Of a stretch of 38,430 nucleotides of DNA, positions 6,423 through 38,304 are shown piece by piece; the stretch's first letter is position 1; each line of letters begins with the position of its first letter. A model generated the notes under the pieces. That model was not told where the DNA came from. It ran no database searches and saw nothing but the letters and a program-made list of their open reading frames with translations. Made by a program: the position numbers and the translations under genes. Origin of the DNA: Methanooceanicella nereidis (GTDB lineage: Archaea; Halobacteriota; Methanocellia; Methanocellales; Methanocellaceae); assembly GCF_021023085.1 (NCBI RefSeq), contig NZ_PGCK01000015.1:1-38430 (forward strand), written 5' to 3'.

Positions 6423-6540
6423 CCGGAGATAAATGTCCTGTACATTTAATTCATTGTTTTTAAATCCGGAGGAATGAGGAAGCATCAGAAGCTTATAAGG
6501 CAGCCGCGTATACAAAGGGAAGACTGAACACCATTCTTCA
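6423..6540. other. Intergenic stretch without a recognisable gene
   Basis: The gap from 6423 to 6827 totals 405 bases. This first part is unremarkable AT-rich sequence. The remainder is accounted for by a hairpin repeat (6541-6693), a terminator-like hairpin (6721-6770) and the cofC promoter (6796). Confidence 0.6.
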
Positions 6541-6693
6541 CCACAAAGCGCACAAAGGCGAACAAGCACACGGCTTCCAACCACAAAGCGCACAAAGGCA
6601 AACAAGGAACACAAAGGACTTCTTTTAAAAAATTAGTATATCTTAAAAAAATTTTTTTGTTCCTTGTTCGCCTTCGTACGCTTAGTGGTTAAC
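6541..6693. repeat. CACAAAGCGCACAAAGG-unit hairpin element
   Basis: Two direct units (starting at 6541 and 6581, 40 bases apart) read CCACAAAGCGCACAAAGGC. They are followed by the shared centre AAAGGACTTCTTTTAAAA...ATTTTTTT and then an inverted unit (TCCTTGTTCGCCTTCGTACGC, in part), ending GTGGTTAAC. Its arrangement matches the loci at 21600 and 31948. No coding potential was seen. Confidence 0.8.
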
Positions 6694-13439: not shown

Positions 13440-13774
13440 GGATATTTTCTCATCATGTTCACTTTCTGGGTTATCACAAGGCCGCAATGTATCATCTTTT
13501 CGACATCAGGGAGAACTTCGTTGATCCTTTCTTCAGTATCCACGACGTCGATAACTACGGGGAGATCGAGAGACAGGCGGAACACGTCAACTGTCCGGAT
13601 CTCCTTTTCATGGCCGAAACCCATCATCCCTCTAAAAACGGTGCATCCGGGAAACCCCCTATCCTTGAAAAACTCTACCAGGAACTTATGGGCAGGCCGG
13701 TCATTTATCTTCGCCGTCTCGGAGATATAGATGCGGAGAAGCATTCCCTCGGTAAACATTCCAGACAACTCCAT
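13436..13774 (-). CDS. DUF190 family protein (PII-like fold)
   Basis: A 112-residue cytoplasmic protein of the DUF190 family, ferredoxin-like/PII-like proteins very often encoded beside CrcB fluoride channels. Visible features are LLRIYISETAKI near the N-terminus, an RGFPGCTVFRGMMGFG turn, and LPVVIDVVDTEERI. The ATG at 13774 shares one base with the crcB stop (TGATG), showing coupling. A regulatory role towards the channel is inferred from context only. Confidence 0.85.
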   Translation of the reverse strand: MELSGMFTEGMLLRIYISETAKINDRPAHKFLVEFFKDRGFPGCTVFRGMMGFGHEKEIRTVDVFRLSLDLPVVIDVVDTEERINEVLPDVEKMIHCGLVITQKVNMMRKYP

Positions 13775-14118
13775 CAACTCAGTAACATATAACCTATGTA
13801 AATCCCCATTAAACTTCCCACGACATTCAATATAATGTTCGCCAGGGCCGTATAATGATCTTTATCCTCTATCATCCTGAAAGTCTCGAACCCGAACGAT
13901 GACATGGTGGTGAAACCGCCCAGCATGCCCGTGCATAAGAGTTCATAAATTCCCCCTGTAATACCGGAGAACGTTAAAAGAGACAGCATGAAGCTGCCGG
14001 TAACGTTCACTGCCAGCGTCCCGGAGGGAAGTCCCTGTACAGGGCTCATTCGCGAGAACGTGTACCTGAGCATCGAACCTATGGCGCCACCGATCCCTAC
14101 GAGTATTACCGCCTCCAT
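13774..14118 (-). CDS. crcB: Fluoride channel CrcB/Fluc, subunit 1
   Basis: Fluc proteins are small four-helix membrane proteins that form dimeric F- export channels. This 114-residue protein has the GGAIGSMLRY start, the conserved asparagine helix (AVNVTGSF) and the GGFTTMSSFGFET motif that lines the pore. It starts with ATG at 14118, directly abutting the stop of the second crcB gene. The two are separate homologues and may form a heterodimer, as in organisms with paired crcB genes. Confidence 0.93.
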   Translation of the reverse strand: MEAVILVGIGGAIGSMLRYTFSRMSPVQGLPSGTLAVNVTGSFMLSLLTFSGITGGIYELLCTGMLGGFTTMSSFGFETFRMIEDKDHYTALANIILNVVGSLMGIYIGYMLLS

Positions 14119-14484
14119 CTATCTCAACCCCGACAGCCTGATAGCGACGGACCTGCCCGCGAAAACGCAAAGTATCCCCAGCCCCACGTTCAGCATTACG
14201 TTAATAAATGCAGCTAATGGAGATGCAATATAAGTCTGATAGCTGAACGTCGAGAATGTCGTAAAGGCGCCTATGAACCCCACCCCATAGACCATGCGGG
14301 TATGCTGGCTAAAAGCCCCGATGTAGATCGACTCGTACATCAAGAACCCCAGCAGGAAGCAGCCCAGAAGATTCACGATAAGGATACCGGGCATATCAGG
14401 TATCAACCCGGAGACAACATACCGTGAGCAGGCGCCTGCGAACCCACCTGCGGACACAAGAAGATAAGGCTCCAGTCTTTTAAT
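14119..14484 (-). CDS. crcB: Fluoride channel CrcB/Fluc, subunit 2 (start uncertain)
   Basis: The second Fluc homologue has IVNLLGCF and GAFTTFSTFSYQT, the latter closer to the family consensus than subunit 1. The first conventional start, GTG at 14457, yields 112 residues but cuts into the first helix (SAGGFAGACSRY). Upstream, in frame, lie codons for KRLEPYLLV, which completes a normal Fluc N-terminus, before a stop at 14509-14511. That stretch has no ATG/GTG/TTG. An ATT at 14484 sits eight bases after a GGAG site and could be a rare start. I list that longer form; 14457 is the conservative alternative. Confidence 0.75.
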   Translation of the reverse strand: MKRLEPYLLVSAGGFAGACSRYVVSGLIPDMPGILIVNLLGCFLLGFLMYESIYIGAFSQHTRMVYGVGFIGAFTTFSTFSYQTYIASPLAAFINVMLNVGLGILCVFAGRSVAIRLSGLR

Positions 14485-14768: not shown

Positions 14769-14963
14769 ATGGCGACGGTTAACATTTCAAGAGATGGGAC
14801 GGTCACCAGGCCGATGAGCTCCGGACTGGAAGTATGTGTCAACTGCGGCTATAAGCGGGGATTCCACGTGACGATAAATACCGGAACAGGAAAGCCTATG
14901 ATCATACTTGTATGCCCCGATTGTGGCACTAAGTATGACCTGGATTGGCCGGTAAACATATAG
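14769..14963 (+). CDS. Small zinc-ribbon protein of unknown function
   Basis: A 64-residue protein with two CxxC knuckles (C23/C26 and C49/C52), spaced to bind one zinc ion in a ribbon fold. The second reads CPDCGTKYDLDW. I do not recognise a named family. The ATG at 14769 is preferred over a TTG at 14763. No ribosome site is visible, and AT-rich TATA-like sequence lies about 25-30 bases upstream, so it may be leaderless. It stands alone before guaA. Confidence 0.75.
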   Translation: MATVNISRDGTVTRPMSSGLEVCVNCGYKRGFHVTINTGTGKPMIILVCPDCGTKYDLDWPVNI

Positions 14964-15006
14964 ATAAGATCCGGGGCAATACTATTTTTTAAAGAATTGA
15001 AAAACC

Positions 15007-17420: not shown

Positions 17421-17640
17421 AAATAATTTCTATATAGATTTCTCCGATATTATAGTTATCATGATACACAAAATCACAATATAATAAAATTATATATTTT
17501 GATATAATAAAATAAACCTAATCATCCTTTTTTTCAATTCGTCATTATTTATACAGACAACAAACAATGACGTAATAAATAGAAGCTAATTAAACAATAT
17601 TATACAAAAATAAAGTGTTACAGAGGAGCTGGATAGAATA
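17421..17640. other. AT-rich gap with no gene seen
   Basis: Very AT-rich sequence between the YkgJ-type gene and the candidate RNA gene. It presumably holds the promoter of the gene at 17420. No open reading frame or strong repeat was found. Confidence 0.5.
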
Positions 17641-17644
17641 AGAC

Positions 17645-17654
17645 TATAAAAATA
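17645..17654 (+). promoter_or_regulatory. TATA box of the candidate RNA gene
   Basis: TATAAAAATA is centred about 26 bases before 17675, at the edge of the GC-rich island. Confidence 0.45.
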
Positions 17655-17671
17655 ATTAATATGTTCTACAT

Positions 17672-17853
17672 CAACTAAAGATATGAAACCCCCACAAGAA
17701 GAGCGCTGGGCTACGGAAGCTTGATCAGATGCTTGCCGGCTGAGGTCCTGACCTTTCGCACGAGATCCAAGTGCGAAAGATCATCCAGTGGACGTCTGTC
17801 GTGATCCGGGCGTCACAAGTGTCCGTACCCACCTATCTACCTCTAATTTTTTA
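17672..17853 (+). ncRNA. Candidate structured non-coding RNA (unknown class)
   Basis: A GC-rich block of about 145 bases sits in otherwise very AT-rich sequence, has no open reading frame and folds well by eye. A closing stem pairs GGG(c)TACGG (17708-17716) with CCGTACCC (17823-17830). Inside are AAGC/GCTT (17717-17720 / 17731-17734), a perfect 9-bp hairpin CTTTCGCAC/GTGCGAAAG (17753-17761 / 17771-17779) extended by GTCC/GGAC (17745-17748 / 17790-17793), and a short GTGA/TCAC stem (17801-17804 / 17813-17816). A TATA box precedes it and AATTTTTT follows it, favouring the plus strand. I find none of the conserved words of RNase P or SRP RNA, nor a tRNA. Confidence 0.5.
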
Positions 17854-17857
17854 AGTT

Positions 17858-18085
17858 TTAAAGATATATCGATAGGCTTATTATCGCATGTATTATCCCG
17901 ATAGCGATAGCGGCACCCGCTATCATCTGATGGGTTTTTATCGTTGTCCTGATCCATCCTTTCATGAGGCCGTAACCCACATATGCGGTTATCAGCAGAA
18001 GCGCGACGGTGAGCATACCCATCCAGCTTAACACCGGAAGCCCCAAAAACATCGTATAAGCAAATTCCTGTATTCCGCCTATCAT
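17858..18085 (-). CDS. Small two-helix membrane protein paired with a cupredoxin
   Basis: A 75-residue protein with two hydrophobic helices (about residues 18-40 and 54-74) and a short basic loop between (KGWIRTTIK). Histidines H52 and H66 lie at and within the second helix and could be metal or heme ligands; that is speculation. Its ATG overlaps the stop of the cupredoxin gene by four bases, so the two are translationally coupled and probably work together at the membrane. No family recognised. Confidence 0.75.
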   Translation of the reverse strand: MIGGIQEFAYTMFLGLPVLSWMGMLTVALLLITAYVGYGLMKGWIRTTIKTHQMIAGAAIAIGIIHAIISLSIYL

Positions 18086-21455: not shown

Positions 21456-21599
21456 TACTTCCGCCCGGTATGATTCCTGCTGACCGGTATCGTGCTATTA
21501 TTAATTAAAGTCAGACCGCACATAGTGGTCTGATCCCTATAATTTCCTTAAATGGATTCTTTGTTCAAGTCATCGCAAAGGCAAATAAGGACCACTAGC
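21456..21599. other. Gap leading into a repeat, no gene seen
   Basis: The gap between the membrane protein and mptE-like gene (21456-21911) holds this AT-rich stretch, the hairpin element at 21600-21798 and a further ~110 AT-rich bases. A short inverted pair, CAGACC/TGGTCTG near 21510-21533, may be the 3' hairpin of the membrane protein gene. Confidence 0.5.
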
Positions 21600-21798
21600 T
21601 TTCACTACAATGCGCACAAAGGCAACAAAGGGCACAGTTTCCAACCACAAAGCGCACAAAGGCGAACAAGGAACACTAAACTGCTAACCACAAAGCGCAC
21701 AAAGGCGAACAAGGAACACAAAGGACTTCTTTTAGAAGGTTATCATATATTTTAAAAAAATTTTTGTGTACCTTACTCGCCTTCGTGCGCTTCGTGGT
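21600..21798. repeat. 43-base-unit hairpin element
   Basis: Units begin at about 21600 (degenerate), 21643 and 21686, a 43-base period, with consensus AACCACAAAGCGCACAAAGG. The centre AAAGGACTTCTTTTAGAAGG and ATTTTAAAAAAATTTTTGTG follows, then an inverted unit (CGCCTTCGTGCGCTTCGTGG). The inverted arm covers only about one unit here. Confidence 0.85.
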
Positions 21799-21911
21799 GA
21801 AAGAGAATACATAATAGGATTAGGAATTAACAGAGTACAATACAAATTTTCATCATATATGCAAATTCTTAGAAAACAGACTTCTATTGGATAAATCGGA
21901 GAGCTTCTGTC

Positions 21912-26177: not shown

Positions 26178-26270
26178 ATGATGCAAATATACCCGGACGC
26201 TGCTGACGGCAGATACACGGTAAAAATAAACGGCATGACCGCGACGCTTCTCGTAGAGCATGTCAGTTGA
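26178..26270 (+). CDS. Possible 30-residue small protein
   Basis: A short frame, MMQIYPDAADGRYTVKINGM followed by TATLLVEHVS, lies between the TATA box at 26044 and a terminator hairpin at 26272. The residue composition and GC-rich third codon positions look protein-like. No ribosome site is clear before either ATG (26178, 26181). It may be a genuine small protein, a gene relic, or chance sequence within a small RNA. Confidence 0.3.
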   Translation: MMQIYPDAADGRYTVKINGMTATLLVEHVS

Positions 26271-26271
26271 C

Positions 26272-26293
26272 GGGGGCCGTCAGCCCCCTCTTT
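26272..26293 (+). terminator. GC hairpin terminator between convergent units
   Basis: GGGGGC (26272-26277) pairs with GCCCCC (26283-26288), followed by TCTTT. It lies right after the small frame on the plus strand and just past the stop of the gene at 26301 on the minus strand, so it could serve both. Confidence 0.6.
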
Positions 26294-29371: not shown

Positions 29372-29901
29372 GTTCCTGTCGGATGGCAGGCAGACACATA
29401 ACCTCACAGAAACACAGAACCACAAAAATTTTTATATGATATTTTAAGGTCACAAAAATCACCAAAATTTACTCACCAAACCACAAAGGCTCTAGCATCA
29501 CCGTCAATGCTCTAACACCTCTAACGCTCGGCTCAACGCACCAACCTCTATAAGTCACTAACGCTAAAACAAGGCCCGAACATTCTCCAAAAACACGAAA
29601 TCTTAACTGCACGGTTGACGTTTAAAAGACTATTATATCTGTTATAGGTCAGGCGAACACAAACCGGGATATTAAACTTTAGTGCCTTGGAGAACGTTCG
29701 GGATTTGTTTTAGCGTTAGTGACTTAGAGCACTTTGAGTTATGAGCCGTGCGTTAGGGCTGTTTGTGCATGGACGGTGATACTGGAGACCTTAGAGATTT
29801 TGTGAGTACATCTTTGAGATTTCGTGCCATTAAATTCTAAAAAAAATTTGTGTTTCTGTGTTTCTGTGAGGTTATGTGTCTGCCTGCCATCCGACAGGAA
29901 C
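29372..29901 (+). repeat. Long inverted repeat element, copy 2 (core)
   Basis: The left arm (29372-29590) and right arm (29687-29901) are near complements. Both termini are GTTCCTGTCGGATGGCAGG, and the inner edges are CCCGAACATTCTCCAA and TTGGAGAACGTTCGGG. The ~96-base centre contains TTAACTGCACGGTTGACG on the left and ACAAACCGGGATATTAAA on the right, the reverse order of copy 1. There is no convincing reading frame. Confidence 0.9.
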
Positions 29902-31902: not shown

Positions 31903-31947
31903 TGAAAAATAATCTCGACGAAGGGCTCAAAGGAACACTAATTTTTT

Positions 31948-32275
31948 AACCACGAAGCGCACAAAGGGCTCGAAGGTGCACGAAACTGCTAACCACAAAG
32001 CGCACGAAGGCGAACAAGGAACACTAAACTGCTAACCACAAAGCGCACAAAGGCGAACAAGGAACACAAAGGACTTTTTTAGAAGATTACCATATTTTTT
32101 TAAAAAAAATTTTGTGTACCTTACTCGCCTTCGTGCACTTCGTGGTTAACAGTCTAGTGTACCTTACTCGCCTTCGTGCGCTTCGTGGTTAACAGTCTAG
32201 TGTACCTTACTCGCCTTCGTGCGCTTCGTGGTTAACAGTCTAGTGTACCTTACTCGCCTTCGTGCGCTTCGTGGT
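31948..32275. repeat. Large 43-base-unit hairpin locus
   Basis: Three direct units on the left start at 31948, 31991 and 32034 (AACCACAAAGCGCACGAAGG type), exactly 43 bases apart. The centre follows (AAAGGACTTTTTTAGAAG, then an A/T stretch). Four inverted units on the right start at 32114, 32157, 32200 and 32243 (GTGTACCTTACTCGCCTTCG type), also 43 bases apart and nearly identical. Together they could form a stem of well over 100 base pairs. This fills most of the 31903-32305 gap, and no gene is seen. Confidence 0.92.
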
Positions 32276-32305
32276 AAAAAAGAACAATATAAGAATTATT
32301 TTCCT

Positions 32306-35339: not shown

Positions 35340-35866
35340 CGGATGGCAGGTAGACTACTAACCTCACAGAAACACGGAAACACAAAAAAATTTTTATAAG
35401 ATATTTTAAGGGCTCAAAAGCACCAAAAACTTACTCACTAAACCACAAAGGCTCCAGTATCACTGTCAACGCACTAACGTCTCAAACGCTCGACTCAACG
35501 CACCAAATTCTCTAATACACTAACGCTAAAACAAATCCCGAACCTCTCCAAACCACGAAAGTTTAATGGCCCGGTTTCCGTTTAACACTACTGAACAAAC
35601 CGGATATGAAGATGATCAATAAGGCTTAGCACAAACCGCGATTTAAACTTCGTGGTTTGGAGAGGTTCGGGATTTGTTTTAGCGTTAGTGGTTTTGTGGA
35701 CTTTAAGCGTTGAGTTGAGCGTTTGAGACGTTTGAGCGTTGACAGTGATACTGGAGCCTTTGTGGTTTAGTGAGTAAATTCTTAGAGACTTCGTGCTCTT
35801 AAAAAATCATAAAAAAATTTTTTGTGTTTCCGTGTTTCTGTGAGGTTTGTATCTACCTGCCATCCG
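35340..35866. repeat. Long inverted repeat element, copy 3 (core only)
   Basis: The left arm (35340-35567) and right arm (35642-35866) are near complements, ending CGGATGGCAGG / CCTGCCATCCG, with a centre of about 74 bases. The outermost GTTCCTGT and modules A and B are missing. The inner edge reads CCCGAACCTCTCCAAACCAC on the left and GTGGTTTGGAGAGGTTCGGG on the right. It thus differs from copies 1 and 2 in both arms in a matching way. Confidence 0.9.
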
Positions 35867-37980: not shown

Positions 37981-38060
37981 ATGACCACGAAGGCGATAAA
38001 GGACACTAGCTTTCACCATAAAGCGCTCAACGGGCTCGAAGGTCCACCATTTTTCCCCAC
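37981..38060. repeat. Degenerate CACGAAG-type repeat units
   Basis: ACCACGAAGGCGATAAAGGA and a second unit (AAAGCGCTCAACGGGCTCGA) precede module A. The same kind of units flank module A in copy 1. The stretch 37833-37980 is AT-rich upstream sequence of the EamA gene. Confidence 0.6.
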
Positions 38061-38248
38061 GAAATCTTTGATGAGCGGGGTCTTGCTCAGGTTTTAAGAA
38101 TGAAATAACGTGTCTTACCTATTGGTCTTTGAGATGAAGTTTTTATGGTTGTGCCTGCCATCCGACAAGCACAACGGCAGAACATCGATCCCATAATGAA
38201 TGTTACATGCACGTCTTTACAGAGACCTTCAAAAAGTTTTTCATGGGA
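38061..38248 (+). repeat. Collapsed composite repeat (copy 4): modules A and B without the core
   Basis: Module A (38061-38147) and module B (38176-38248) are separated by only 28 bases (38148-38175), GTTGTGC...CTGCCATCCGACAA...GCACAAC, instead of the ~530-base core. The 28 bases contain one terminal repeat of the core (CTGCCATCCGACA) and are themselves closed by a 7-bp inverted pair. Confidence 0.8.
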
Positions 38249-38304
38249 GCGCACGAAGGCGAACAGGGTACACCAATTTCCACCACGAAGGGCGCTAAGG
38301 GCTC

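Follow-up and report, generated by a model that had tools for sequence, protein, structure and literature searches.

The locus considered here, a GC-rich block in an AT-rich intergenic region, raises the question of whether it is the gene of a structured RNA, as the original prediction had proposed, or a feature of another kind. We find it to be a real structured block, of moderate significance, and we hypothesize that it is a gene: on balance the analyses lean somewhat toward a candidate gene, on the + strand, for a lineage-specific intergenic small RNA (sRNA) of ~150–180 nt. Throughout the text the window is the whole stretch of DNA that was analysed, 38,430 nt long, from a genome of 3.19 Mb in 41 contigs that belongs to a relative of Methanocella.

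Composition and boundaries of the block

The block occupies part of an intergenic region of 437 nt, and the genes on either side are all on the − strand; its core stops short of the convergent membrane-protein ORF at 17858-18085. With 56.5% GC in the core, against 22.5% in the left 276 nt of the intergenic region (17421-17696) and 5.9% at the right edge (17844-17860), the block is indeed the GC island within AT-rich DNA that had been described, and it is the clearest non-coding one within the window. The remaining GC islands are a small ORF (14770-14964), a stretch at ~26194-26293 overlapping with an ORF of 84 aa whose status is uncertain, and an array of repeats (32123-32262). Between 17700 and 17830 the core also contains four GATC words (TGATCA, AGATCC, AGATCA, TGATCC), a number above the expectation based on composition. 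The coordinates of the individual features are listed in Table 1.

Table 1. Features of the block and of its surroundings, in window coordinates.
Feature	Position	Strand	Description or basis
AT-rich flank	17421..17671	.	~22% GC
TATA-like box CTATAAAA	17644..17651	+	sequence; ~25 nt upstream of 17672
Putative unstructured 5' part with ACCCCCAC	17672..17696	+	unpaired in MFE and centroid
Structured core	17697..17843	+	50-pair single rod; shuffles, GC
Closing stem, 5' arm	17707..17717	+	partner 17822-17831; C17711 bulged
Apical hairpin	17749..17783	+	perfect 9 bp + UGA/UCA, loop GAGAUCCAA
Closing stem, 3' arm	17822..17831	+	partner 17707-17717
Mostly unpaired pyrimidine-rich 3' part CACCUAUCUACCUCUAA	17830..17846	+	sequence and fold
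U6 and U4 tracts, candidate archaeal terminator	17847..17859	+	sequence; U-tract termination, PMC8716108

Both boundary signals of the original prediction are present. The TATA-like box has the spacing that would be expected of an archaeal TATA box for a start near 17674, while 0.25 copies of the word [CT]TATAAAA are expected by chance in 276 nt of the + strand. The T-run at the other end consists of TTTTTT (17847-17852) followed by TTTT (17856-17859); in archaeal termination as studied in Methanococcus maripaludis, U-tracts are the binding sites of aCPSF1, and the most efficient terminators were those with two U4 tracts (PMC8716108). Both signals are weak evidence, because DNA so rich in AT makes TATA-like and T-rich words common.

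Predicted fold and coding potential

The MFE fold of the core on the + strand is one unbranched rod of 50 pairs (28 GC, 17 AU, 5 GU) with an energy of −60.3 kcal/mol, which is matched by 8 of 6000 dinucleotide shuffles (p ~0.0013; z-score −3.7 to −3.9, with −3.93 for the core); a fold consisting of one hairpin with 50 or more pairs is seen in only 0.1% of the shuffles. When ~23 intergenic regions and both strands are allowed for, the p-value rises to ~0.06, for a region that was itself chosen because it looked structured; this level is suggestive and short of proof. When 638 windows of 182 nt were scanned, the top z-scores belonged to dispersed palindromic repeats, and some nearby windows, several of which lie in dispersed repeats, have z-scores similar to or better than that of the block. 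The − strand likewise gives a rod, at −53.0 kcal/mol; the + strand is thus favored by 7.3 kcal/mol, a gap reached by 1.6% of the shuffles. Since it derives from G-U pairs, this asymmetry between the strands favors an RNA over a DNA feature.

The long-range closing stem that had been predicted is part of the rod (UGGG-UACGGA with UCCGUA-CCCA, one C being bulged), and so is the perfect 9-bp hairpin formed by CUUUCGCAC and GUGCGAAAG (17753-17761 and 17771-17779), with its UGA/UCA extension and its loop of 9 nt. The smaller stems of the original prediction exist as pairings, not as separate stems: in the unbranched MFE fold they are segments of the rod. In the 3' part the words CACCU and ACCUC resemble anti-Shine-Dalgarno words and may function as such.

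The block had been called non-coding, and this agrees with every measure that we applied. All six frames of the core are interrupted by stops, the best codon score is −0.05 bits/codon as compared with 0.26 ± 0.14 in true genes, and the ATG frame from 17684 has just 13 codons. The open stretches tested in the block gave zero matches to Pfam and PHROGs; together with the codon score, this result led us to reject a phage gene fragment or a coding gene.

Homologues and synteny

Conservation in related genomes had been set as a test of the gene, and on this point the outcome is negative, as no homologue was found in any genome searched. BLAST (E ≤ 0.01) against 60 relatives returned nothing beyond the window itself, and the top foreign hit among 393 genomes of the phylum was a piece of 24 nt (E 0.011); weak pieces of ~15–38 nt, with E above 0.01 per genome, were taken as chance. 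A covariance model (R1), built from the single sequence of the block, recovered in the family only the place of the block and its own reverse strand, and in 295 genomes of the phylum only the place of the block. No homologue was present in the phages, plasmids and viral contigs searched, and no second copy was found in the genome itself. As a positive control, a search with a slice of RNase P RNA of equal length succeeded in all three family members, at 84–86% identity. Since the slice was recovered and the block was not, a strongly conserved RNA is excluded; there is still room for a fast-evolving one, since a 147-nt stretch adjoining RNase P likewise gave no match. These searches refer to a set of genomes with no second species of the host's own genus, in which the family members G001 and G002 are contigs of 3,179,916 and 2,957,635 bp; a search of contigs with the neighbouring radical-SAM protein led to one Methanocella MAG (G003) and to distant loci, mostly of Methanoperedens, with no closer relative among them.

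The order of the neighbouring genes (radical-SAM protein, cupredoxin, membrane protein of 72–75 aa, ykgJ-like protein) is kept in all three relatives. The gap between membrane protein and ykgJ, which in the window spans the 437 nt with the block inside, is of only 39 nt in G002, and is filled by a further cupredoxin gene in G001 and G003. The block is therefore lineage-specific, being missing at the syntenic place in the relatives; it is an insertion or an innovation of the host lineage, or else a loss in the others.

Other features of the window

A dispersed near-palindromic repeat of ~520 bp occurs at 297-816, 29381-29892 and 35341-35865. Its two halves are able to pair over most of their extent (self-fold −250 to −322 kcal/mol), and several copies end in CCTGTCGGATGGCAGG/CCTGCCATCCGACAGG. 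The host genome holds ~40 near-full copies (80 matches on both strands), and in one relative there are only short partial matches. It is possibly a foldback or MITE-like element, with no gene recognised inside, and may merit more attention. A second repeat family consists of tandem units of ~43 nt (AACCACAAAGCGCACAAAGGCGAACAAGGAACACTAAACTGCT) that face inverted copies, giving long intergenic hairpins at 31918-32281 and also at 6521-6692, 21585-21801 and 37996-38276. The unlisted ORF at 14770-14964 (+ strand, ~64 aa, two CxxC motifs, MATVNISRDGTVTRPMSSGLEVCVNCGYKRG...), read by eye, would encode a small zinc-ribbon-like protein. Two neighbouring ORFs at 13774-14457 were likewise assigned by eye as CrcB-like (fluoride channel), and the Rfam fluoride riboswitch had no match there.

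Interpretation of the block

Structure, composition, non-coding character, strand preference and boundary signals all fit the structured RNA gene of the original prediction, but the conservation that it had named as a check is absent from every genome searched. The main rival to the sRNA gene is a leftover of inserted DNA: a palindromic or foldback fragment would have displaced or replaced the third cupredoxin gene or the spacer of the relatives, and its palindromy would be a DNA feature or due to chance. We consider this unlikely, yet it deserves serious attention, as the neighbourhood is kept in relatives that uniformly lack the block, long palindromic repeats such as the 520-bp one abound in the genome, and the corrected p-value of the fold is modest. 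Against it speak the G-U-based asymmetry of the strands, the single-copy status of the block, and the absence of any match between the block and the dispersed repeats of the window, which also led us to reject a copy of such a repeat. There are, moreover, no clear terminal repeats: the only direct repeat that flanks the block, the 9-nt TAAAGATAT (at 17676 and 17859), is of a kind that arises easily in AT-rich DNA.

With all flanking genes on the − strand, and with these genes next to one another in the relatives, the block might instead belong to a − strand transcript, either as a structured 3' terminus of the cupredoxin-membrane protein operon or as an intercistronic or leader element ahead of ykgJ. 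That strand has a rod of its own, but an ordinary one, equalled by 315 of 6000 shuffles; ~275 nt of AT-rich DNA separate the block from ykgJ, and that gene may have its own TATA-like box on the − strand, near its start in the closest part of the flank; and no riboswitch or leader family matches the block. We thus regard this origin as quite improbable. The GC content resembles that of coding DNA, as it would if a protein gene (the third cupredoxin, for example) had decayed here or if the block were a short coding gene, and two relatives do have a cupredoxin gene at the syntenic place; however, tblastn with the cupredoxins of the relatives left no trace in the block, and the stops, codon score, database results and 13-codon ATG frame described above make this the least credible of the explanations.

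If the block is an sRNA gene, it is best read as genus- or species-specific, known so far in one genome only. Transcription would start ~25 nt past the TATA-like box, proceed through the rod and, by analogy with known archaeal termination, stop at the U6/U4 tracts. The rod may shield the RNA and give it stability, and the unpaired C-rich ends (ACCCCCAC and CACCUAUCUACCUC) could pair with the ribosome-binding sites of mRNAs encoded elsewhere, lowering their translation; a comparable concept is the anti-RBS action proposed for loop 2 of Methanosarcina mazei sRNA154 (PMC5867862). That the block encodes a new lineage-restricted RNA with all of these properties, a 50-pair rod with anti-Shine-Dalgarno-like ends that acts on several mRNAs in trans and arose at a site occupied in relatives by a cupredoxin gene or a short spacer, is a doubtful proposition, which we offer only tentatively. 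By itself the block would be one among many unconserved archaeal sRNAs. Should it be transcribed, the Methanocella family, for which a limited literature search found no paper devoted to sRNAs, would gain an sRNA candidate, and the block would clearly exemplify a structured RNA gene arising at a site that in close relatives holds a protein gene or a short spacer.

Comparison with known systems

The Rfam 15 scan suggested in the original prediction gave no match of the block above the gathering threshold (scores in a permissive scan were at chance level), and ARAGORN found neither tRNA nor tmRNA; the block fits no Rfam family, nor tRNA, RNase P or SRP RNA, in keeping with the original prediction, which had seen in it none of the conserved words of the common archaeal RNAs. 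RNase P RNA (RF00373) and SRP RNA (RF01857) are, like the block, structured and GC-rich archaeal RNA genes; neither matches the block, and the genome has its own copies of both elsewhere, above cut-off (C3:294694-294996 and C1:77132-77444, respectively). Integron attC sites are imperfect single-hairpin palindromes of ~120 nt with unpaired bases, an architecture that the block shares; an attC site was rejected, as neither GTT nor AAC occurs in the core, and the defining RYYYAAC and GTTRRRY boxes are therefore missing.

The closest likeness is with archaeal intergenic sRNAs, as the block lies between genes and is non-coding. With sRNA154 and sRNA162 of M. mazei it has in common the intergenic location, the size class, a stable predicted structure and unpaired segments with the potential to mask ribosome-binding sites (PMC5867862), whereas sRNA154 consists of two stem-loops and the block of one rod. 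The block has no sequence homologue in the phylum sample; such low conservation is usual for the class, since in Methanosarcina no more than 21% of intergenic sRNAs are common to three species (PMC5867862).
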